Under the pieces are notes generated by a model. That model was given only the letters and a program-made list of their open reading frames with translations, was not told where the DNA came from and made no database searches. DNA of 37,327 nucleotides from Pseudomonadota bacterium (GTDB taxonomy: Bacteria; Pseudomonadota; Gammaproteobacteria; Steroidobacterales; Steroidobacteraceae): the NCBI GenBank assembly GCA_021850555.1, contig JAJZLX010000447.1:1-37327 (forward strand), given 5' to 3'. The position numbers were made by a program, and so were the translations under genes. The stretch's first letter is position 1. The number at the start of each line of letters is the position of its first letter. Positions 9,886 to 27,741 of the stretch are shown here, piece after piece.

Positions 9886-10162
9886 CGGGAACGCCCGTGA
9901 GTCGCGCCTCGAGCGGATAGAGCGCCTGACCCGGCGTTTTGTCCGCCAGGTACTGCATGATGGCGTGCGACTCCCACAGGATGAAGCCATCGTCCTCGAG
10001 CGCCGGGACCCGGTGGTTGGGATTGAGCTTCAGGAACTGCGGCTGGCGTTGTGCGCCCTTTGGCAGATCGACGAACACCGGCTCGACCGGGACGCCGAGC
10101 TGGATGGCGGCCATGCCGGCGCGGCGGGCATTGAAGGAGAACGGATGGTGATACAGACGCAT
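9869..10162 (-). pseudogene. GST remnant: N-terminal thioredoxin half only
   Basis: 97 codons from an ATG preceded by GAGGG (5-nt spacer). The whole GST N-terminal domain is present: MRLYHHPFSFNARRAGMAA with a serine active site, NPNHRVPALEDDG with the cis-proline, WESHAIMQYLADK with the ES motif, and ALYPLEARL, which normally leads into helix alpha-4. Directly after ALYPLEARL the frame meets unrelated TGVPVTRAA and a stop, so the ~110-residue helical domain is missing. The break coincides with the end of the convergent plus-strand GST gene. I therefore treat it as a 3'-truncated pseudogene. A free-standing thioredoxin-fold protein is possible but less likely. Confidence 0.7.
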
Positions 10163-10226
10163 GGTGGCCCTCACGGTGGCGACGGATCAACGAGCCCATC
10201 GTGCCAGCGGGCCGTGACAGATTCTG

Positions 10227-10410
10227 TCAGCAGTCCTTGCGCTCGCGGCGGATTGCCTCGCGCAGCGTCTGCAACCCCGACACCGGCTCGGCACGCGGCC
10301 CGAAGCGCGGCGCCCACGGACCGGTCCCGGCGATCTGGTCGCTCAGGTCCTTTGGCGAGACGGCCGCGCAACGCCTCGAGCAGCTGCAACAGGCGGGACG
10401 TGCGGCTCAC
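10227..10410 (-). pseudogene. Internally deleted YafY-type (HTH + WYL) regulator remnant
   Basis: A GTG at 10410 overlaps the SDR stop (GTGA) and begins VSRTSRLLQLLEALRGR, the usual first helix of YafY-type HTH/WYL regulators. After about 20 codons the similarity moves to another frame, reading DLSDQIAGTGPWAPR and then GLQTLREAIRRERKDC before a stop at 10227. In intact WYL regulators an LxxxLxxAIRxERK segment starts the WYL domain about 130 residues after the HTH start. The pattern therefore shows a large internal deletion with a frame change, plus loss of the WYL domain itself. The family assignment rests on pattern memory, not alignment. The remnant lies between the truncated GST and an intact SDR, in a zone of gene loss. 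Confidence 0.5.
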
Positions 10411-11252
10411 CCGGACTTGGGCTCCGTGCGATAGCCGCCGCGGGTCGCGGCCATCCGGTACGCCGCGGCGCGCAGCACCCAGGGAGCGAATCGCTCCAGC
10501 GCGACGAACAGCTTGCCGTGGCCGGTGATGATGACTTCCCTGCGCCCCCGCGCGATGGCATGCAGCATCTGGCTCACCGCGTGCCGCCTGTCCGCGACCA
10601 GCCAGCCCGGCATAGGCTCGGCGGCGTCGGCATGCAGTTGCCCCTGGTTGTCGACGCGGCGGATGTTGCTCTCGACGAATCCGGGGCTGATCAGAGTGAC
10701 CCGCACCCCCATGAGCGCAAGCTCCGGCGTGATGGAGTTGGCGAGCGCCCGCACGGCGAACTTGCTCATCGCATACGGCGAGGCGCCGGGCGAAGCGGTC
10801 CACCCCGCCACGCTGCCGACGATCACCAGCTGGCCGCGGGATTTGGCCACCTCGGGCAGGGCTGCGTGCAGCGTGCGCAACACTCCGAATACGTTCGTCT
10901 CGAACTGGCGGCGGTAATCCTCTACGGTCAGCCTGGCGAAATTGCCGACGACCCCGAAACCGGCGTTGGCAATGACGATGTCGAGTCTGCCCCTGCGCAG
11001 AACGGTCTCTGCGACAGCGCGCGGCGGGTCGTCGTCCCGAGTTACGTCGCACTCCATGATCAACGGCTCCACGCCGCCGGCTTCGCGGATCCGGCGGCTG
11101 ACCTGCTCCAGCCGCTCGGTGCGGCGCGCGGCCAGGGTGAGCACGGCTCCCGCCCGGGCGAGCTGGTGGGCCAGCTCTTCTCCGATCCCGGAGGAAGCGC
11201 CGGTGATGAGGACGATCTTGTCGCGAAAGCTCTCTTCTGTACCCGCACGCAT
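10407..11252 (-). CDS. Short-chain dehydrogenase/reductase (SDR)
   Basis: 281 aa. The start at 11252 has GGAGG four bases upstream; the frame is open for 130 further codons, but these are not protein-like. Classical SDR features are present: TGASSGIG (17-24) for NAD(P) binding, a basic AARRTERLE after beta-2 that suggests NADP preference, CDVTRDD, NAG (96-98), Asn120, and the catalytic Ser147/Tyr160/Lys164 in SPYAMSK. The C-terminal RREVIITGHGKLFVALERFAPW resembles SDRs acting on long-chain or lipid-like substrates, but the substrate cannot be assigned. Its stop overlaps the GTG of the WYL regulator remnant. A strong hairpin lies in its 5' leader. Confidence 0.88.
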   Translation of the reverse strand: MRAGTEESFRDKIVLITGASSGIGEELAHQLARAGAVLTLAARRTERLEQVSRRIREAGGVEPLIMECDVTRDDDPPRAVAETVLRRGRLDIVIANAGFGVVGNFARLTVEDYRRQFETNVFGVLRTLHAALPEVAKSRGQLVIVGSVAGWTASPGASPYAMSKFAVRALANSITPELALMGVRVTLISPGFVESNIRRVDNQGQLHADAAEPMPGWLVADRRHAVSQMLHAIARGRREVIITGHGKLFVALERFAPWVLRAAAYRMAATRGGYRTEPKSG

Positions 11253-17950: not shown

Positions 17951-20329
17951 TCAGCGCTTGAGCGCGCGCGCCAGCGCCTCGGCCATCACTCCGTTGCTCT
18001 GCGGCTCCGGCTCCCGGCGTCTCGGCGCTCTCGGGTCGTGGCGGGCCGGTGAACGGCCTCCCTCCCGCTGCGCCTCGCGTTGACGACCGGCATCGGACCG
18101 CGCGCCCGGCGGCGCCTCGAGCTTCATGGTGAGCGCGATGCGCCGGCGTTGCAGGTCGATCTCGATCACTTTCACCTTCACGACATCGCCCGCCTTGACC
18201 AGCTCTCGCGGGTCCTTGACGAAACGGTGCGACATCATGGAGATGTGCACCAGCCCATCCTGGTGCACGCCGATGTCGACGAACGCGCCGAAGTTGGTGA
18301 CGTTCGTGACGACCCCCTCGAGCAGCATGCCCGGGGTCAGGTCCTTGAGGTCCTCGACGCCTTCGTGAAACACGGCGGTCTTGAACTCCGGACGTGGATC
18401 GCGCCCGGGCTTCTCGAGCTCGCGCAGGATGTCGCGTATGGTCGGCAGGCCGAAGCGCTCGTCCGTATACCGGCTCGGGTCGATCTGCGCCAGTGCACCC
18501 GTGTTGCCCATCACCTGCGCGAGCGGCTTGCCGATGTCCGCGAGCATGCGCTCCACGACCGCATAGGCCTCCGGATGCACCGCCGAGCGGTCAAGCGGAT
18601 TGTCTCCGGCGATGCGCAGAAATCCCGCCGCCTGCTCGAAGGTCTTGGCTCCGAGCCGCGGCACGTTGCGCAGCCCTTCCCGGCTCGGGAAGGCGCCGTT
18701 CTCGTCGCGGTAGCGCACGATCGCCTCGGCGAGGGAGGCCGAGAGCCCCGAGATGCGCGCAAGCAGAGCCGGGGAAGCGGTGTTGACATCGACTCCCACG
18801 GCATTGACGCAATCCTCCACCACCGCATCGAGCGAGCGAGCGAGCTTCGTCTGGCTGACGTCGTGCTGGTACTGCCCGACGCCGATCGACTTCGGATCGA
18901 TCTTGACGAGCTCGGCGAGCGGATCCTGCAGCCGGCGGGCGATGGATACCGCCCCCCGCAGGCTCACGTCGAGCCCGGGCAGCTCGCTCGAGGCGAGCTC
19001 GGAGGCCGAATACACCGAAGCGCCCGCCTCGGACACCACGATCTTGGTGAGCCCGAGCTCCGGATGTCGCTTGATCAGGTCCGCGGCCAGTTTGTCGGTC
19101 TCCCGCGAGGCGGTTCCGTTGCCGATGCTGATGAGGTCCACCGAGTGTCTCTTGGCCAACACCACCAGCGCGTGCAGCGCCCCGTCCCAGTCGTTGCGCG
19201 GAACATGCGGGTAGATCGTCGCCGTGTCCAGCACCTTGCCGGTGCGGTCGACCACGGCCACCTTGACGCCCGTGCGCAGTCCGGGATCGAGTCCCATGGT
19301 GGCCCGAGGGCCCGCGGGAGCGGCGAGCAGCAGGTCATGCAGATTGCGCGCGAACACGCCGATCGCCTCCTCTTCCGCGCGGGAGCGCAGCTCTGCGAAC
19401 AGCTCGCCCTCGAGCTGCCAGGCGAGTTTCACCTGCCAGGCCCAGCGCACGGTCTGCGACAGCCAGGCATCGGCGGGACGTCCCTGGCTCGACACCTGGA
19501 AGCGCACGGCGATCTTGCGCTCGCAAGCGCTCGCAGCGTCGGCGCAGGCGGGTCTGGCCTGAGCCTCGGGCGCCTCCAGCTCCTCGGGCAGCTTCAGGGC
19601 GAGCTGCAGCATCTCCTCCTTGCGCCCACGGAAAAGCGCCAGGGCGCGGTGCGAGGGAATCGCCTTGATCGGCTCGCGATAGTCGAAGTAATCACGGAAT
19701 TTCCCGCCGGCCTCATCCTTGCCCGCCTCCACTTTGGAGACGACCCAGGCGCTCTCACGCAGATGCTCCCTCAGCTCCCCGACCAGCGCCGCATCCTCGG
19801 CGAACTGCTCCATGAGCACCTGCCGGGCGCCGTCGAGCGCCGCTTTCTCATCCGGTACTCCCGGGTTCTCTCCCTGCTCCGTCGCGAACGGCGCCTTGAG
19901 GTACTTCGCTGCCTCGGCCTGCGGATCCAGACGCGGGTCCGCCAGCAGCGCCGCGGCGAGCACATCGAGGCCCGCCTCGCGGGCGATCTGCGCCTTGGTG
20001 CGGCGCTTGGGCTTGTAGGGCAGGTAGAGATCCTCGAGCCGCTGCTTGGTGTCGGCGGTCTCGATGCTCTGCCTGAGCTCCGGTGTCAGTTTTCCCTGCT
20101 CCTCGATGCTCTTCACGATCGCGGCGCGGCGCTCCTGCAGCTCGCGCAGGTACCCGAGGCGCTCCTGCAGCGTGCGCAGCTGCGCATCGTCGAGCCCACC
20201 GGTGGCTTCCTTGCGGTAGCGCGCGATGAACGGCACGGTGGCCCCACCATCGAGAAGAGCGACGGCGGCGATGACCTGCTGCGGCGTGGCGGCGAGCTCA
20301 GCCGCGATACGGGATTCGATTGAGAGCAT
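17951..20329 (-). CDS. tex: Tex-family RNA-binding transcription accessory protein
   Basis: 792 aa, the usual Tex length. The start at 20329 gives the family N-terminus ([19 protein letters not shown], then [17 protein letters not shown]). The frame is open for another 2.2 kb upstream, but that part is antisense to other genes. Domains in order: N-terminal helical Tex domain with [19 protein letters not shown]; a YqgF/RNase H-like fold near residue 344 starting [17 protein letters not shown]; helix-hairpin-helix motifs around 510-575 ([16 protein letters not shown]); an S1 RNA-binding domain around 660-733 ([20 protein letters not shown]); and a disordered basic tail. Tex binds RNA and affects transcription and, in several pathogens, virulence gene expression. 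It is divergent from the MFS gene. Confidence 0.96.
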
Positions 20330-20470
20330 CGGGAACCGGGAGAGACGAAAGGGAGCGGCACTATGCGCAAACGGCCGGTGGACAACAAGACTTGCGCAAT
20401 GACCGCCGGATGGCCTATGGCGCTTGGACGGATGGCGGGTGCGTCCGGGTTCTAGTAGGCTGCACCCAAG

Positions 20471-21901
20471 ATGGAGACGCGCCGGACGAATGTGACTCCA
20501 TTCGAGGATTCCGGCCGGGGCGACCCCCTGGCGCTGGCGCTGCGTGCCATCGCCACGCCGCGCCGCTATATCCGCCCCTGGTATCTCGCATATCTGCTGC
20601 TCGGGATGGTCACCTCGGGCCTGCTGCCGGTCCTGCTGCCCCTGGCGGTCGAGGGTCTCTCCCACAGCCTCGCCACCGTGGCCTACGTCATGGGGGCATA
20701 CAATTTCGGCCTGTTGACCTCCCCGCTGTGGGGCTTGCTGGCCGAGCGCGCCAAGGCGTACCGCAAACTGTTCCTCGGAGGCTTTCTGCTCACGGCCGCC
20801 GGCACGCTCGGCATGCTTGCGCTGAGAGGTCTTCCATCCTGGCTGGTTGCGGCCTTCGCACTCGGTGCAGGCTCGGGAGGCGCGGCAACGCTGGCGACGC
20901 TTTTCGTCGTCGATTTCGCGCCCCGGACCGAATGGGAGCCGCGCATCGGCTGGCTGCAGACCTTCAATGCCGCCGGCCAGGTTGCGGGGCTGATGCTGGC
21001 CGCGGCGTTCACGGGCGGGGATTTCGCGCCCGCACTGTGGGTCTGCGTCACTTTCCTGCTGTTGGCCATGGCGGTGGGAGGCATCGGCCTGCCGAGCTCG
21101 CCCCGCGCTGCGACCGGCGCCACCGAGCACCCGCACCTGCATCTCAATGTTCGGGCGCTTGCCCTGTTTCCGAAGCTGATCCTGCCTTCCGGCATCGACC
21201 TGCATGTCTACCATCTGAATCTGCACGGGCTGCGCAGTCTCCCGCAGACGCTCGGCACCCCGTTCGGACGGTTCCTGCTTTCGTGGTTCGTGTTCGCCTT
21301 CGCCGTCGCGGCGTTTTTTTCCTATTTCCCCCTCATGCTGGCGGAAGGCTATGGCGTCCCCGCCCACGCAAGTGCGATGATCTACGCCGTGACCGCGGCC
21401 CTGGGCATCGGGCTGTACGTCCTCACCAGTCAACTGACGGCCCGGTACGGTCCCGCCCGCGTCTATCGCGCCGGACTGGTGTTGCGCATCGCCGGCTTCA
21501 GTCTGCTGCTCGCGCCGTTTCTGATTGCAATGGGCGCTCGGTCGCTGCTCGGGATGGCGGGCTTCGCACTGATCGTCATCGCCTGGCCCCTGTTGAGTGT
21601 CTCCGGAACCGACCTGGGCGCGAGCCTGACGACGTTCAGCGAGGGCGCGGCCGTTGGGCTGCTGAACGCCGCCCTGGCGCTTGCCACGGCCCTCGGAATC
21701 GTCGTCAGCGGCCCGCTGGTCGCCCGCTGGGGCTACCAGACCATTCCCGCGACCGCGATAGCGGGACTCGCCGTCTCGCTCTGGCTCGGGATGGACACGC
21801 GCAACCGCGGCACACCCGAGACGGGCCGCCCCGGCCGGCCGGCCGCCGAGGTCCCGGCAGGAGAGGGTGGGAAGAGCGGACTGCGGCTGGTCAGGGGATA
21901 A
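20471..21901 (+). CDS. MFS transporter
   Basis: 476 aa with about twelve membrane helices. The first block has [20 protein letters not shown] and then [19 protein letters not shown], a variant of the MFS loop 2-3 motif (G-x-L-x-E-R/K-x-x-x-R/K). Helices 4-6 run to about residue 210. A ~60-residue cytoplasmic loop follows ([17 protein letters not shown] onward), and then the second half with [22 protein letters not shown] proline/glycine-rich C-terminal tail of ~35 residues is probably disordered. The substrate is unknown; the architecture fits drug or metabolite exporters. It starts 141 bp from the divergent Tex gene, and the ketopantoate-reductase-like gene follows 7 bp after its stop, so the two are probably one operon. 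Confidence 0.88.
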
Positions 21902-21908
21902 CTCGAAC

Positions 21909-22889
21909 ATGACTCGAACCGAATTCGCCATTCTCGGACCCGGAGCGCTCGGCTCCATCCTCGCGGCGCATCTCGCGGCGGCCGGACACTCCGTGGTCGT
22001 GCTGGCGCGCGGAGAGCGCGCAAGAAACATCAAGGAGCAGGGGCTGCGCATCAGGGGTCTTGCACGGATCTCGACCCACGTAGGGGTGATCACGGAGCCA
22101 TCGGAGCTGCGGGCGGCCGAGGTTTTGATCGTGGCCACGAAGACACCCGGCACGGAGGCCGCGCTCGAGCGCCTGCGGCATGTCGAGGTGGCCGTGGCGT
22201 TCTCCGTCCAGAACGGGGTGTTGAAAGACGAACTGCTGGCACGGACATTCGGCGCGGACCGCGTGCTCGGCGCGCTCGCGGACACGAGTGGAGAGCTGCT
22301 TCCCTCCGGTGAGGTGCTGTTCACGCGCAACGTGAGCTTGCCGCTTGGCGAGCTCACGGGCAGCGCCGGCCGCGCGGCACGGATCGCGGCAATGATCGAC
22401 GCCGCGGGCGTCAGGTCCTGCGCCGTGGCCGACATCGTGGCGAGGGAGTGGAGCAAGTTCACCGCCTGGGTGTCGCTCATGAGCCTGGCGGTCGTGACGA
22501 GATCCGCCACCTGGCGCTACCTGAGCGACCCGGATTGCGCGCTCGTACTCGTGCGGATTACCCGTGAGGTCGCCCGGCTCGCCGAGGCGCAGGGGGTGAC
22601 GCTGAGAGAGGAAGGGATTCTGTTCCCCCTGCACACCGTCCTCCATGCCCCGGAGGCGCAGGCCGTACAGGCGGTCCAGGCAACCGGAGAAAGGCTGCGC
22701 CTGGACGCCCCCGACCATCGCATGTCGTCCCTTCAGGACCTCGAAGCGGGCCGCCCGCTCGAAGTCGACGAGACTCTGGGCCATGCGGCGCGCAAGGCGT
22801 CGGAGCTGCGTCTTTCTCTGCCGCTGCTCGAGGCCGCGCATCGCCTGGTCGCGGGGATCGACCGGCTGCGCGCCGCAGGGCGCGCTTGA
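21909..22889 (+). CDS. Ketopantoate reductase family (ApbA/PanE-like) oxidoreductase
   Basis: 326 aa. The start at 21909 leads directly into the Rossmann motif ILGPGALGS (G10-x-G12-x-x-G15) and a beta-2 end [12 protein letters not shown], consistent with NADPH binding. Later landmarks are NGV in [21 protein letters not shown] with the lysine that polarises the keto group in PanE, and [16 protein letters not shown], matching the C-terminal S-x-x-x-D-x-x-x-x-x-x-E motif that contacts the pantoate hydroxyls. It is thus an NADPH-dependent 2-keto acid reductase of the ApbA/PanE superfamily. The EWSKF neighbourhood is not the classical K-x-x-x-N, so pantothenate synthesis itself is uncertain. It is probably co-transcribed with the upstream MFS gene. 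Confidence 0.82.
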
Positions 22890-22931: not shown

Positions 22932-24125
22932 TCAACCCGCCTGCCGGGAGAGCTTCCGGTTCAACGTGCGATACAGGCTCCGCGGGCCGTCGAGGTCAAT
23001 GTAGCATCCCTGCAGGTGCCGTCGGCCTTCGTTCGGGTCGTAGGCGGTGCGGCCATGCAGGACGCGGCTGTTGTGAAACATCATGAGCTCGCCCGCCTTG
23101 AGCGGGAATCGCAGCTCGAAGCGTGGATCGGCGAACAACTCGCTCAACCGCCGGCGCGCCCGGTGAAAGCGCCGCGTAGCGCCCGCATCGAGCAGCGGCA
23201 GATCGTCGAGTCTCGGACTGTAGTGCACGCCGGTCATCCGGCCGGTCTTGTCCCGGTCCACGATCGGGCGGCGCTCGATGAGCTCCTCGTCCGCGTCGAT
23301 GAAGCGGAACCGGACGGGCGTGCAAGCGAGCAGCTCGAACCCCTCCGGGTCCTCCTCCCGCATCGCCCCGGCCACGCACAGGCTGTCGACCAGCGTCGAC
23401 CATCCGCCGCAGGTCTCGTTGACCAGGCAGTGCAGCAGCTGGATGCCGGGCACCGGCTCGCGGTATGGATTGTCCGTATGCGCGCCCAAGCGTACCGGTC
23501 GATACGCCAGATCGTTCGAGTTCGGCCGCGAGTAGACCTCGAAATACCGGCCGAAATTCGTTTCGCGCACACGCCCGAACCGCCGTGCGACCGTGAGAAT
23601 GCACTCGGGGTCGGTGGGCAGGTCGTGGATGATGAGGAGCCCGTAGGTGAGGAACGTCGTGAGCGCCTTCAGGCGTGCCCCGTCGCGATCGAGATCGCGG
23701 CCGTCCACGCGCACGGCCTCGAGCGGCAGGTCGGCGCGCCATGGAATCGCTTGCGGAAGTCCGTCCTCGAGGTCGAGCTCCTCGGCCAGGCGGCTCAGGT
23801 CATATTCGCCGCAATATCCGTCGCTGAAGGACAGCCGCGCGCGATCGCCACCCACGTCCCGCGCGTCGATCAAGGCGAGATCCTCGGGCAGCCGATGCGG
23901 GTCGAACAGGCGCTGCTGCGTATGCGGGTCGAGATGCTCCGCGTCCTGACATCGCTCGCGCAGCCACAGGGCCTGCAGCTCGAGCAGGCCCTGCCTCGTT
24001 CGGGCAAACACCCGTGCAGGATTGGTTTCGAGCTTGAATTGCACTGCATTGCGAGGCGACATCCCGGCGCCTCGCAATGCGGTCCAGCTGTCGCCGTCCA
24101 GGGCCGTTGCAGACGGTTTTGTCAT
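22932..24125 (-). CDS. TmpA-like / gamma-butyrobetaine-hydroxylase-type Fe(II)/2-oxoglutarate oxygenase
   Basis: 397 aa. I choose the ATG at 24125, after a G-rich tract; an in-frame TTG lies 11 codons upstream. An N-terminal GBBH/DUF971-type domain (~30-130) contains LWLRERCQDAEH, in which the CxCxxC zinc motif of human BBOX1 is reduced to one Cys plus Asp/His. The catalytic TauD-type barrel follows: His216-x-Asp218 in GAHTDNPYR, distal His357 and the 2OG-binding Arg359 in RVLHGRTAY, and PGIQLLHCLVNE as in BBOX1. Relatives hydroxylate gamma-butyrobetaine, trimethyllysine or, for TmpA, 2-(trimethylammonio)ethylphosphonate. The co-encoded TmpB-like HD oxygenase argues for the phosphonate substrate. 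It is last in a four-gene operon, 67 bp after the GntR gene, and convergent with the reductase gene. Confidence 0.82.
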   Translation of the reverse strand: MTKPSATALDGDSWTALRGAGMSPRNAVQFKLETNPARVFARTRQGLLELQALWLRERCQDAEHLDPHTQQRLFDPHRLPEDLALIDARDVGGDRARLSFSDGYCGEYDLSRLAEELDLEDGLPQAIPWRADLPLEAVRVDGRDLDRDGARLKALTTFLTYGLLIIHDLPTDPECILTVARRFGRVRETNFGRYFEVYSRPNSNDLAYRPVRLGAHTDNPYREPVPGIQLLHCLVNETCGGWSTLVDSLCVAGAMREEDPEGFELLACTPVRFRFIDADEELIERRPIVDRDKTGRMTGVHYSPRLDDLPLLDAGATRRFHRARRRLSELFADPRFELRFPLKAGELMMFHNSRVLHGRTAYDPNEGRRHLQGCYIDLDGPRSLYRTLNRKLSRQAG

Positions 24126-24192
24126 CACCCACCCCCCGGCGCCCGATGTCGAGGCCAAATTTCCCGCATGTGCATCACGCGAGGCCCGTAGG

Positions 24193-24879
24193 TCAGTCCG
24201 TCGAGCCGGTCCGCCCGGCGCCGTCCCGCTCGGCCCGCAGGATCTGCTCGGGCGGCAGGATGTTCGCCTCGGCCAGACGCTCCGCGCGCTCGGCCTCCCC
24301 GGCGCAGATGCTGTCGACGAGCTCGCGATGCGAGTCGCAGATCTCCTGCGCGTTCACCTGACGGTTCGAGAGCGCGATGTAGACCCTGAACTGATTCGCG
24401 ACGCGCAGATAGTGCTGCAGCAGCCGCTCGTGACCGGAGAGGCGGATGATGAGCACATGCAGCGAGCGGTCCAGCTGGTCCGCCCTGTCGTGATCCTGCG
24501 ACCGGGCCGCTTCGCACAACGCGTCGAAAGCGGCCCGAAGCTCACGAATGCCCGCCGCGTCGATCCGGCTTGCAGCCAGGCGACTACCCAGCCGCTCGAG
24601 CGCGCCGCGCAGGGTGTAAAGCTCCCACAGATCGTGCTCGCTGAAGTCGATGACCTGGTACCCGGTGTAGGGCACGTGACAGACCAGCCCCTCCTCGACC
24701 AGACGGCGCAGCGCGGCGCGGATCGTGCCGCGCGAGAGCCCGTGCCGATCGGCGAGCGCGGTTTCGATCAGCCGCTCACCGGCGGCCAGCTCGCCGCGAA
24801 CGATCCGCCTGCGCAGCAGATCGGCCGCCCGGGTCTCCAGGCTGCGCCTGTCGATCGACTCGCTGGAGGCATCCGTCAT
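24193..24879 (-). CDS. GntR-family transcriptional regulator, FCD (FadR) subfamily
   Basis: 228 aa. A winged helix-turn-helix at ~12-75 (RIVRGELAAGERLIETALAD, then GLSRGTIRAALRRLVEEGL) is followed by an all-helical FCD ligand domain with conserved metal-site histidines in SLHVLIIRLSGHERLL and SHRELVDSI. FCD regulators usually repress catabolic operons and release DNA on binding an acid or its metabolite. It is encoded inside the TmpB-TmpA operon. Its ATG overlaps the stop of the 49-codon ORF (ATGA), so it is translationally coupled. The perfect dyad GATTGTCAACAATC in front of the operon has the T-G-T/A-C-A symmetry of FadR-subfamily operators and is its likely site, giving autoregulation and substrate induction. 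Confidence 0.9.
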   Translation of the reverse strand: MTDASSESIDRRSLETRAADLLRRRIVRGELAAGERLIETALADRHGLSRGTIRAALRRLVEEGLVCHVPYTGYQVIDFSEHDLWELYTLRGALERLGSRLAASRIDAAGIRELRAAFDALCEAARSQDHDRADQLDRSLHVLIIRLSGHERLLQHYLRVANQFRVYIALSNRQVNAQEICDSHRELVDSICAGEAERAERLAEANILPPEQILRAERDGAGRTGSTD

Positions 24880-25025
24880 GTCAATCCCGGCGCGCGCAGC
24901 CCGACTCCGCACCCGTGCTGCAACGTGCGGATCATGCTCGGCGACAGCGCGCGCACGTCCTCGCGCGAGCGCGTGTCCGCGAGTTTTGAGCCCAGGTTCC
25001 CGAGCGAGATGAGTCCTGCGATCAT
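24876..25025 (-). CDS. 49-aa small protein coupled to the GntR gene
   Basis: ATG at 25025 with a strong GAGGGG five bases upstream, 35 bp after the TmpB-like gene. It starts MIAGLISLGNLGSKLADTR and ends GVGLRAPGLT; the stop overlaps the GntR start by ATGA. It has a short hydrophobic N-terminus, a charged middle (TRSREDVRALSPSMIRTLQ) and a single Cys. I do not recognise a family. The strong ribosome binding site and precise overlaps suggest it is translated, either as a functional small protein or as a leader that couples translation of the regulator to that of the oxygenase. Confidence 0.55.
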   Translation of the reverse strand: MIAGLISLGNLGSKLADTRSREDVRALSPSMIRTLQHGCGVGLRAPGLT

Positions 25026-25060
25026 GAACGCCCCTCTGGATGGCGCGCCGGGAGTGCGGA

Positions 25061-25654
25061 TCAGATTCGGTGTTGGAGAGCGGTCTGCGCGCCGATGACG
25101 GCGGGGTCGAAGGCCGGACGCGACAGAATGCGCCGCACGAGCGGCGCGAAGTGCTCGAGGGACCGCGTCGGGTAATCCGGATCGAAAGCCGCCTGGTCCC
25201 ATCGCTCGCAGAACCGGACACAACTGTCGTAACAGGGGTGGTCACGGTAGGCCGCCCGCAGCTCCGGGTCTTCGCCGAGAAAATGTCCGTAATAGATCTT
25301 CTGGAAGAGGCCGTGATGCTCCACCACCCAGGTCACTTCGGCCCTCACATAGGGGCGAATGATCTCGGCGGCGTAGCGGGAATGATTCTCCGGGGCGAGC
25401 TGGTCGCCCAGGTCGTGCAGCAGCGCCCCGAACACCATCTCCTCGTCAGCGTCATCCGCCTCGGCCCGCGTCGCGGCCTGCAAAGAGTGCTCCAGGCGCG
25501 TGACCTGATAGCCGCCCAGACCGTCATCGAGCCCCTGCAGCGCGGCGAAGATGCGCTCAGGCAGCTGCTCGACATAGCCTCGCTCGAGCCGGCTCAGGAA
25601 GGCGTATTCGGCCTTCGTCCCATCCTTCATCTGTCGGAAACGGACGGCACGCAT
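25061..25654 (-). CDS. TmpB/PhnZ-like HD-domain mixed-valent diiron oxygenase
   Basis: 197 aa with GGGAG 5 nt before the ATG. The HD-domain ligand set of PhnZ/TmpB/MIOX-type oxygenases is visible in order: His56 in LEHSLQ, His80-Asp81 in LLHDLGD, His91 in ENHSRYAAEIIRPYV, His113 or His114 in VEHHGLFQ, and Asp153 in ERWDQAAFDPDY. The H56-H80 spacing of 24 matches PhnZ H34-H58. Where PhnZ has Glu27, which helps bind the 2-aminoethyl group, this protein appears to have Tyr49. That would suit a quaternary ammonium substrate better than a primary amine, but the alignment is by eye. TmpB cleaves (R)-1-hydroxy-2-(trimethylammonio)ethylphosphonate to glycine betaine and phosphate. The gene opens the operon, ahead of the GntR and TmpA-like genes. 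Confidence 0.85.
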   Translation of the reverse strand: MRAVRFRQMKDGTKAEYAFLSRLERGYVEQLPERIFAALQGLDDGLGGYQVTRLEHSLQAATRAEADDADEEMVFGALLHDLGDQLAPENHSRYAAEIIRPYVRAEVTWVVEHHGLFQKIYYGHFLGEDPELRAAYRDHPCYDSCVRFCERWDQAAFDPDYPTRSLEHFAPLVRRILSRPAFDPAVIGAQTALQHRI

Positions 25655-25896: not shown

Positions 25897-27741
25897 GTGC
25901 TCAAGATTCATTCCCTCACTCGCCATGTGCCTCGCGCCCTGTTCGCGGTGAGTTCGCTCGGCCTCGGGCACGCGACTCGCTCGCTCGTGGTCATTCGCGA
26001 ATACCTGAGGCGCGGCTACTCCGTCACTGTCATTTCCGCTGGCAACGCGCTGGCGTTCCTGCGCCTGGAGCTCGAGGGAGAATCCGCCGTGCAGCTCAGG
26101 GACATGCCCGATTATCCCCCGCTCGAGCGCGGCAGCGGCTGGCGCCTGTACTGCTATCTGGCGATAGACCTGCTCAAGACCTGGCGGCTGATCGCGCGCG
26201 AGCATCGAGAAGTGCGCGCGATGGCGGCGGACTATGACTTCATCTTCAGTGACGGCCGCTACGGCTTCCACAGCCCCTGGACACCGTCGTTCATTCTCTC
26301 GCACCAGATCGCCTTCCTGCCGCCCAAGGGGCTGCGCGAGGCCTCCTGGCTGACCGAGCACGTCAATTTAGCCGCCCTGCGCAAATTCGACTGTCTGCTC
26401 ATTCCGGACTATCCGTACCCCAATGCCAATCTGGCCGGCAACCTGGCCCATTCGCACAATCTGCACCGTTGTCCGCACTGCCACGTCGGCATTCTCTCCT
26501 CCTATCCTCACCTCGGCCTGCCGCAAGACATCGACTACCTTTTCATCATCAGCGGCTACCTGCTGGAGCACAAGGACTCGTTCGTGCGCCAGCTGCTCGG
26601 GCAGGCCACCGAATTGCCCGGGCGCAAGGCGTTCATTCTCGGCGACGCGGACGCGGACGCGGCCCTGTACGACACTTTTCGGCGCGACGATCTCGAAATT
26701 CATGCCGTCGCAAGCGGCGCGCTGCGCCAGGAGCTGTTCGAGCGAGCGCGCTGCGTCGTGTCCCGCGCCGGCTATACCACGATCATGGACCTCGTGGAGC
26801 ACGGCAAGCGCGCGTTGCTCGTTCCTACACCCAACCAGACCGAACAGGAGTATCTCGCCTATCACCTGGGCAGTCTCGGGCACTTCGTCAGTCGCGAACA
26901 AAGCGACCGGGATCTGTTGCCGGCGCTGCGCGACTGCGCGCGCACGCGTGCGTTCGAGCCGCCCTGGCGCACGGCGGAATCCGTACGCCGCCTGACGGAA
27001 AGGATCGAGCCGCACCTGCACAAGAATTTCATCAGCGTGATCGTCCCGGCCCACAACGAAGAGAAGGAGCTCGCGCCGACGCTGCGCGCCGTGCTCGATC
27101 AGAGATATCCGGCCGATCGGATGGAAATCATCGTGGTCGAGAACGGCTCGAGCGATGCGACCGCCGAGATCGCCCGGCGCATCGCCAGCGATCCGGCCGC
27201 GGCCGGGAGGCTGCACGTCCTGCACAGCGAGCGCGGGGTCTCACGCGCCAAGAACGCCGGCTTGAGAGCGGTCTCGCCGGATTCCGACTGGGTCGTCCTC
27301 TGCGATGCCGATACCCGCCTCGGCCCGCACTTTCTGCATCACCTCAACACCTGGCTCAACCGGCACGGCCAGGACGGCTTGAGCATCGGCACCACCGCCG
27401 TCCGTCCCCATCCCGGGAACCGCCTGTACGCACGCGCCTGGTTCGTACTCTACGATTGGATCCATCGGCTGACCCGAAGCTCATACTCCATCCAGATCGC
27501 GCGCACACCCATCGCCCGTGGCATCGGCTTTCGCGAGCAGCTGCAATTCGCGGAAGACCTTGAATTCATACATGAGTGCCGCCGCTATGGGCGCTTTTTC
27601 TTCCTGCCCACCGACCAGGTCGGCACCTCGACGCGGCGGTTCGAGGCGCGCGGCTACCTGCGCCAGGGCCTGCGCTGGCTCATCGAGGCAGCGCTGCCGC
27701 TGCGCTACAAGCTGCACCGCACATACGATGTCATCCGCTGA
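25897..27741 (+). CDS. Two-domain glycosyltransferase: GT-B (MurG/MJ1255-like) fused to GT2
   Basis: 614 aa. I use the GTG at 25897; a GTG ten codons later is possible. The first ~360 residues form a GT-B glycosyltransferase of the GT28/MJ1255 type, with a glycine-rich start SSLGLGHATRS, a central CPHCHVGIL, and the nucleotide-sugar-binding half SRAGYTTIMDLVEHGKRALL (around 288-307), followed by PTPNQTEQEYLAYHL. From about residue 375 a GT-A family 2 domain begins (NFISVIVPAHNEEKELAPTL), with VVENGSSDATAEIA and the metal-binding DAD near residue 470 in WVVLCDADTRLG. It likely transfers two sugars or makes a disaccharide on a membrane or secondary-metabolite acceptor. The DedA gene overlaps its end by 14 bp, suggesting a lipid-linked product. 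Confidence 0.82.
   Translation: MLKIHSLTRHVPRALFAVSSLGLGHATRSLVVIREYLRRGYSVTVISAGNALAFLRLELEGESAVQLRDMPDYPPLERGSGWRLYCYLAIDLLKTWRLIAREHREVRAMAADYDFIFSDGRYGFHSPWTPSFILSHQIAFLPPKGLREASWLTEHVNLAALRKFDCLLIPDYPYPNANLAGNLAHSHNLHRCPHCHVGILSSYPHLGLPQDIDYLFIISGYLLEHKDSFVRQLLGQATELPGRKAFILGDADADAALYDTFRRDDLEIHAVASGALRQELFERARCVVSRAGYTTIMDLVEHGKRALLVPTPNQTEQEYLAYHLGSLGHFVSREQSDRDLLPALRDCARTRAFEPPWRTAESVRRLTERIEPHLHKNFISVIVPAHNEEKELAPTLRAVLDQRYPADRMEIIVVENGSSDATAEIARRIASDPAAAGRLHVLHSERGVSRAKNAGLRAVSPDSDWVVLCDADTRLGPHFLHHLNTWLNRHGQDGLSIGTTAVRPHPGNRLYARAWFVLYDWIHRLTRSSYSIQIARTPIARGIGFREQLQFAEDLEFIHECRRYGRFFFLPTDQVGTSTRRFEARGYLRQGLRWLIEAALPLRYKLHRTYDVIR

Follow-up and report, generated by a model that had tools for sequence, protein, structure and literature searches.

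Organization of the locus

Contig JAJZLX010000447.1 of a Steroidobacteraceae genome (assembly GCA_021850555.1), of which positions 1 to 37,327 were analysed as a whole (hereafter the window), carries four open reading frames (ORFs) on the minus strand between 22932 and 25654. In the order in which they would be read these are an HD-domain protein, a 49-aa ORF, a GntR/FCD regulator and a TmpA-like Fe(II)/2-oxoglutarate (Fe/2OG) oxygenase (Table 1), and the succession of two non-haem iron oxygenases and a GntR regulator given in the initial annotation was thus borne out. That annotation went further and took the pair for TmpA/TmpB, which degrade 2-(trimethylammonio)ethylphosphonate (TMAEP). The sequences instead strongly support a close relative of TmpA/TmpB that is separate from them and that may act on a quaternary-ammonium compound lacking a phosphonate group.

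The flanking genes, a glycosyltransferase (25897-27741) and a ketopantoate-reductase-like gene (21906-22889), lie on the plus strand, which sets the four minus-strand ORFs apart as a group, and we infer a single transcript for them. The 376-aa start of the TmpA-like ORF matches that of homologue P0121; translation could also begin further upstream, at 24158. In the nearest relative, locus L001, the HD, GntR and TmpA-like genes occur in identical order with 91-95% protein identity. Since the ratios of non-synonymous to synonymous substitution (dN/dS) against L001 are near 0.2 (~0.19, ~0.19 and ~0.21, respectively), the three genes are under purifying selection.

The small intergenic ORF, whose last 4 bases are shared with the start of gntR, had been counted as part of the gene architecture. 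In locus L002 the gap between the HD and gntR genes is filled by an intact gene for a 323-aa protein of the 3-hydroxyisobutyrate-dehydrogenase kind, the family being named after the homologue in L036, which scored 170.5 bits on HIBADH (cut-off 291.6). The 49-aa ORF corresponds to two stretches of the L002 protein, its 16 N-terminal residues and ~33 residues close to its C-terminus, and its overlap with gntR equals the arrangement found there. In L001 the gap has kept a different stretch of the dehydrogenase, 41 residues of its C-terminal end. We thus rejected a small-protein gene; judged by these alignments, the ORF is a relic of a hydroxyacid-dehydrogenase gene.

Table 1. Coordinates of the ORFs of the window locus and of a second type of oxygenase pair in halomonads.
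Feature	Position	Strand	Remarks
HD-domain protein, HDxGD type, predicted diiron oxygenase	25061..25654	-	197 aa from inner ATG; Pfam HD 28.4 bits
49-aa ORF, shrunken remnant of 3-hydroxyisobutyrate-dehydrogenase-like gene	24876..25025	-	aligned to 323-aa L002 protein
GntR/FCD transcriptional regulator	24193..24879	-	228 aa; Pfam GntR 50.1 bits, FCD 73.8 bits
TmpA-like Fe(II)/2-oxoglutarate oxygenase	22932..24062	-	376 aa; Pfam TauD 149 bits, GBBH-like_N 23.4 bits
Second Fe/2OG + HDxGD pair, L141	3523-5444		halomonads
Second Fe/2OG + HDxGD pair, L142	4860-6595		halomonads
Second Fe/2OG + HDxGD pair, L143	3536-5265		halomonads
Second Fe/2OG + HDxGD pair, L144	5902-7790		halomonads
Second Fe/2OG + HDxGD pair, L147	5886-7600		halomonads
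Second Fe/2OG + HDxGD pair, L148	4061-5775		halomonads

The two oxygenases and their separation from TmpA/TmpB

The HD protein has the six diiron ligand positions H56, H80, D81, H91, H114 and D153, all invariant in 61 aligned members of the family, as had been read from the sequence; H113, listed with them, is not invariant. Its structure model (predicted local distance difference test score, pLDDT, 94.4) matches PhnZ and TmpB best and MIOX less closely. No hydrolase scored above 8.9 against it, which excludes nothing; middling Z values arise by chance with helical models. We regard it as a predicted diiron oxygenase of a type in which the third residue after the HD pair (HD+3) is Asp (HDxGD). 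This Asp is found at all 81 HD loci compared (the best 80 of 307 matches plus the window, a sample that favours close kin), the motif reading HDISD in L048. A search with the window protein returned 3303 protein clusters at E up to 0.001, some of which may be neighbouring HD families; members were seen in Steroidobacteraceae, Halomonadaceae, Actinomycetota, roseobacters and Pelagibacteraceae. The second HD protein of L015/L016 and that of L124 are HDxGK variants within the same family, whose Lys at HD+3 presumably recalls MIOX.

When we placed the HD proteins in a tree (leaving out L011, L012, L072, L021 and the second HD protein of L015, as well as L089 and L117, where no ORF was found), the window protein fell outside the group of 15 PhnZ/TmpB-type proteins with support of 100/100, an outcome that the initial annotation had itself named as refuting its assignment. 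HDxGH and HVxAKR occur together in all 15 PhnZ/TmpB-type rows, 14 of which also have the Y.GE pattern, whereas HVxAKR is found in none of the 92 others and the window protein has neither motif. The YxxE substrate loop is also absent from it, L46 and Y49 occupying its two places. It scored 42.8 bits on the curated TmpB model (cut-off 300) and 45.5 bits on the Phn-HD model (cut-off 214.6). Y49, invariant in the 61 members, does sit at the position of PhnZ E27 and TmpB E33, as had been noticed, but we rejected its proposed use as a marker of quaternary-ammonium substrates, since TmpB accepts such a substrate and yet keeps Glu there (from the available part of PMC8177086).

The Fe/2OG enzyme (structure model pLDDT 93.1) is nearest to TmpA, as the initial annotation had suggested, with 341.9 bits on the TmpA model NF049936 against 226.9 for BBOX and 158.6 for TMLH, although it stays below the TmpA cut-off of 400. 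The Fe triad H195/D197/H336 and the 2OG residue R348 (376-aa numbering) are invariant in the 32 window-type rows, which also keep the aromatic cage for a quaternary ammonium. In a 64-row tree, 40 rows including the window form a clade at 100/98, whose neighbour is a group of 14 TmpB-linked rows (97/87; 73/80 only in a 45-row tree); the node uniting them has weak support (88/67), and L093, also TmpB-linked, stands outside. The trees, from which L012 was left out, include five database proteins whose genomic neighbours were not seen. Sources name homologues of the enzyme gamma-butyrobetaine dioxygenase, as would befit a genuine gamma-butyrobetaine hydroxylase of carnitine synthesis standing beside an unrelated HD protein. 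Yet the three BBOX-type rows split from the window clade in both trees, the BBOX score lies under its cut-off of 414.75, and the Asn191 by which BBOX holds the carboxylate (available part of PMC13257696) is Asp here, so that we consider a carnitine role very improbable. The degenerate N-terminal zinc motif, pointed out earlier as an oddity, is not one, for the solved TmpA has no Cys in the aligned stretch.

TmpA contacts the phosphonate through N187, N287 and R288 (as far as the accessible text of PMC9296572 goes). The equivalent of N187, which is also that of BBOX N191, is Asp184 in 32/32 window-type rows, and N287 is replaced by P283 in all 32; this second Asn is also missing from two of the four TmpA-true rows. 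R288 remains, as R284, and the Asp/Arg pair so formed would be suited to a group that is zwitterionic or donates hydrogen bonds. Among loci where both genes were seen, Asp184 goes with Asp at HD+3 in 34 and Asn with Asp at HD+3 in three, of 37 together, the three being BBOX-type enzymes of Halieaceae (L027, L048 and L049). With HDxGH, 14 of 15 loci have Asn and one, L093, has Asp. The second Fe/2OG enzyme of L002 has a partner HD protein, cut off, that carries HDxGH. Residue 184 and the residue at HD+3 thus offer a simple rule for sorting such pairs.

Proteins above 120 bits on the TmpB model were found in 15 of 34 carrier genomes (over its cut-off in two), whereas the window-type HD proteins of carrier genomes reach 21-35 bits. 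Genomes G006, G007, G025 and G027 have a separate TmpA/TmpB pair (254.7-335.8 bits on TmpB) besides a window-type HD protein, and in L003 such a second pair (TmpA2/TmpB2) lies ~4-6 kb away from it. That both pair types are kept in one genome argues for different substrates. A divergent TmpA/TmpB acting on TMAEP would agree with TmpA being the best model for the Fe/2OG enzyme and with the retained cage and R284, the counterpart of R288; since both proteins fall under their cut-offs, the HD protein lies outside the PhnZ/TmpB-type group, N187 is replaced and some genomes hold a separate pair, this seems to us unlikely. A co-inherited two-protein family distinct from TmpA/TmpB is strongly supported by these comparisons.

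Gene context in relatives

Genes at the 81 loci were picked with antisense shadow ORFs included, and the coding-use scoring applied to them is imperfect. A gene of the TmpA/BBOX family lies within 3 kb of the HD gene at 30 loci, the window included (27 window-type and three BBOX-type), so the pairing itself is no rarity. At five loci the HD gene shares 4 bases with a PhyH-type Fe/2OG gene, and at four a GMC choline-dehydrogenase-like gene lies directly upstream; dehydrogenases related to the L002 protein occur at nine and related aldehyde dehydrogenases at eight. In Pelagibacteraceae loci L065 and L070 the HD gene (10001-10558 in both) stands directly behind a gene that by eye is purF-like, with no Fe/2OG partner nearby. 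A single ORF in L095 (709-2028, minus strand) joins a PhnZ-type HD half to what by eye appears to be a PhyH-type oxygenase half, possibly a bacterial fusion resembling fungal PhoF.

Neighbours that hint at N-methyl compounds are found at a minority of the loci: sarcosine oxidase subunits in L002 and L003, in L003 also a gene resembling carnitine 3-dehydrogenase (563.2 bits, cut-off 592), in L036 a Rieske gene of the GbcA kind (164.7 bits, cut-off 670), a PotF-like gene at L063 and L039, and on plasmid pF045_1 a choline transporter protein, a choline dehydrogenase and an aldehyde dehydrogenase. Rieske genes occur at 11 of the 81 loci, against a background of 107 matches in ~71 Mb from 20 genomes partly picked for such genes, for which reason we claim no enrichment.

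A second type of pair was found in six halomonad loci (Table 1), where the HDxGD protein has 45-49% identity to the window protein and the TmpA-like enzyme, at 423-453 bits, scores over the TmpA cut-off. Five of the six loci show a 4-base overlap between the two genes. In a further locus, L146, they run in opposite directions (TmpA-like enzyme, 401.5 bits). The Fe/2OG enzymes of these pairs have Asp184 and W/A/M at the cage places. Because their HD partner is not TmpB-like and the cage residues differ, the TmpA label is likely a misannotation, and the Fe/2OG clade has, as its residues suggest, probably spread to further substrates. With some enzymes of the clade over the TmpA cut-off, counts of phosphonate degraders may be inflated and names would need correcting.

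The L002 and L003 clusters carry an OPA/UhpC-like transporter. Together with the retained R284 and the phnR-like regulator, it would suit a pair cleaving the carbon-phosphorus (C-P) bond of a phosphonate other than TMAEP, such as one carrying a different amine or a zwitterionic tail. The transporter, however, adjoins the second pair, and the order transporter-TmpA2-TmpB2 recurs without a window-type pair in L149-L152 (by ORF starts in L149, L151 and L152); the C-P lyase gene PhnI is present, irrespective of nearness, in only 7 of 29 carrier genomes. We hold this reading to be rather unlikely, and a link to C-P lyase was set aside on the same count. The row of UhpC-like transporter, TmpA-type and TmpB-type genes (L002 13344-16313, L003 13377-16447, L149 5521-8501 and L150-L152) is itself a candidate unit for TMAEP uptake and cleavage.

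Elsewhere in the window, a 1519-aa open frame (17951-22510, minus strand) has a C-terminal part that by eye looks Tex-type; its N-terminal part, opposite other genes, is probably non-coding.

Proposed reaction and comparison with known systems

We lean, at slightly better than even, towards a pair by which a quaternary-ammonium compound free of phosphonate is first hydroxylated and then cleaved oxidatively. The aromatic cage of the Fe/2OG enzyme would hold the substrate, and hydroxylation would fall on the carbon two bonds from the nitrogen, as in TmpA and BBOX. At a mixed-valent Fe(II)/Fe(III) site the HD enzyme would then bind the carbinol, take its C-H, add oxygen and split the bond to the adjacent atom, freeing a betaine carboxylate such as glycine betaine; the other fragment was probably processed by the hydroxyacid dehydrogenase that relatives still encode intact and this locus has lost. 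A phosphonate is probably not the group released, given Asn to Asp in the Fe/2OG enzyme and a partner without HDxGH, HVxAKR and YxxE. By analogy with MIOX, cleavage of a C-C bond would be the likeliest chemistry. Beta-alanine betaine, homocholine and diamino-acid betaines were considered as substrates, but we claim none of them.

Several observations weigh against this proposal. The phosphonate contact R288 of TmpA is retained as R284 in 32/32 window-type rows. The best NCBIfam match of the regulator is the phosphonate regulator phnR_burk, far under its cut-off (105.8 bits against 271.5). PhnZ His62 contacts the hydroxyl (accessible part of PMC7916636), for which reason we dropped it as a phosphonate ligand, and its loss alone does not exclude phosphonates. 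Asp184 arose essentially once, so its co-variation with the HD motif is a single co-inherited split, one event. The W/A/M cage of the halomonad enzymes, found despite Asp184, means that the clade need not bind a quaternary ammonium throughout. Finally, 42 of the 81 HD loci, and many alphaproteobacterial HD genes, have no TmpA/BBOX-family, PhyH or GMC partner. Such solitary genes, some behind purF, and the public name HD phosphohydrolase would fit an HD protein with a hydrolase or other role beside an Fe/2OG enzyme acting alone, but the six-ligand oxygenase motif, a model closer to PhnZ, TmpB and MIOX than to hydrolases and the 4-base overlaps of HD with oxygenase genes make this improbable.

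If the oxidative reading is extended to the family, a third class of two-enzyme oxidative pathway may be proposed, tentatively and at less than even confidence. In it a TmpA-like or, in some marine bacteria, PhyH-like hydroxylase would pass its product to an HD diiron oxygenase whose HD+3 residue is Asp. The second enzyme would cut an abundant N-methylated metabolite at a C-C instead of a C-P bond and so yield glycine betaine. Carbon and nitrogen would then be turned over by a general route through the HD family, hidden under the names of carnitine biosynthesis and HD phosphohydrolase. Proven HD oxygenases are few (three named in the available part of PMC8177086, with further PhnZ variants in that of PMC10574752), and should this family be oxygenases with a different pocket, the chemistry would extend past phosphonates and inositol. 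Judged by titles and abstract openings, we found no description of an HDxGD pair, and, by titles, none in the literature on beta-alanine betaine degradation.

The closest known system is TmpA/TmpB of Leisingera caerulea, which converts TMAEP to glycine betaine and phosphate. Both systems place an Fe/2OG hydroxylase next to an HD diiron protein, with the same Fe, 2OG and cage residues in the former and the same fold and six metal ligands in the latter. The window proteins differ in forming separate clades, in scoring below both cut-offs, in the Asp that replaces Asn187 and in the lack of the YxxE, HDxGH and HVxAKR motifs. The same three motifs set the HD protein apart from PhnZ of the PhnY/PhnZ system for 2-aminoethylphosphonate, from which the TmpA/BBOX type of the partner is a further difference. 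BBOX shares with the Fe/2OG enzyme the fold family, the Fe and 2OG ligands and the cation cage, whereas the window enzyme has Asp for Asn191, no Cys zinc motif and a clade of its own. MIOX, an HD oxygenase with a diiron site, cleaves a C-C bond, the chemistry proposed here for the HD protein.
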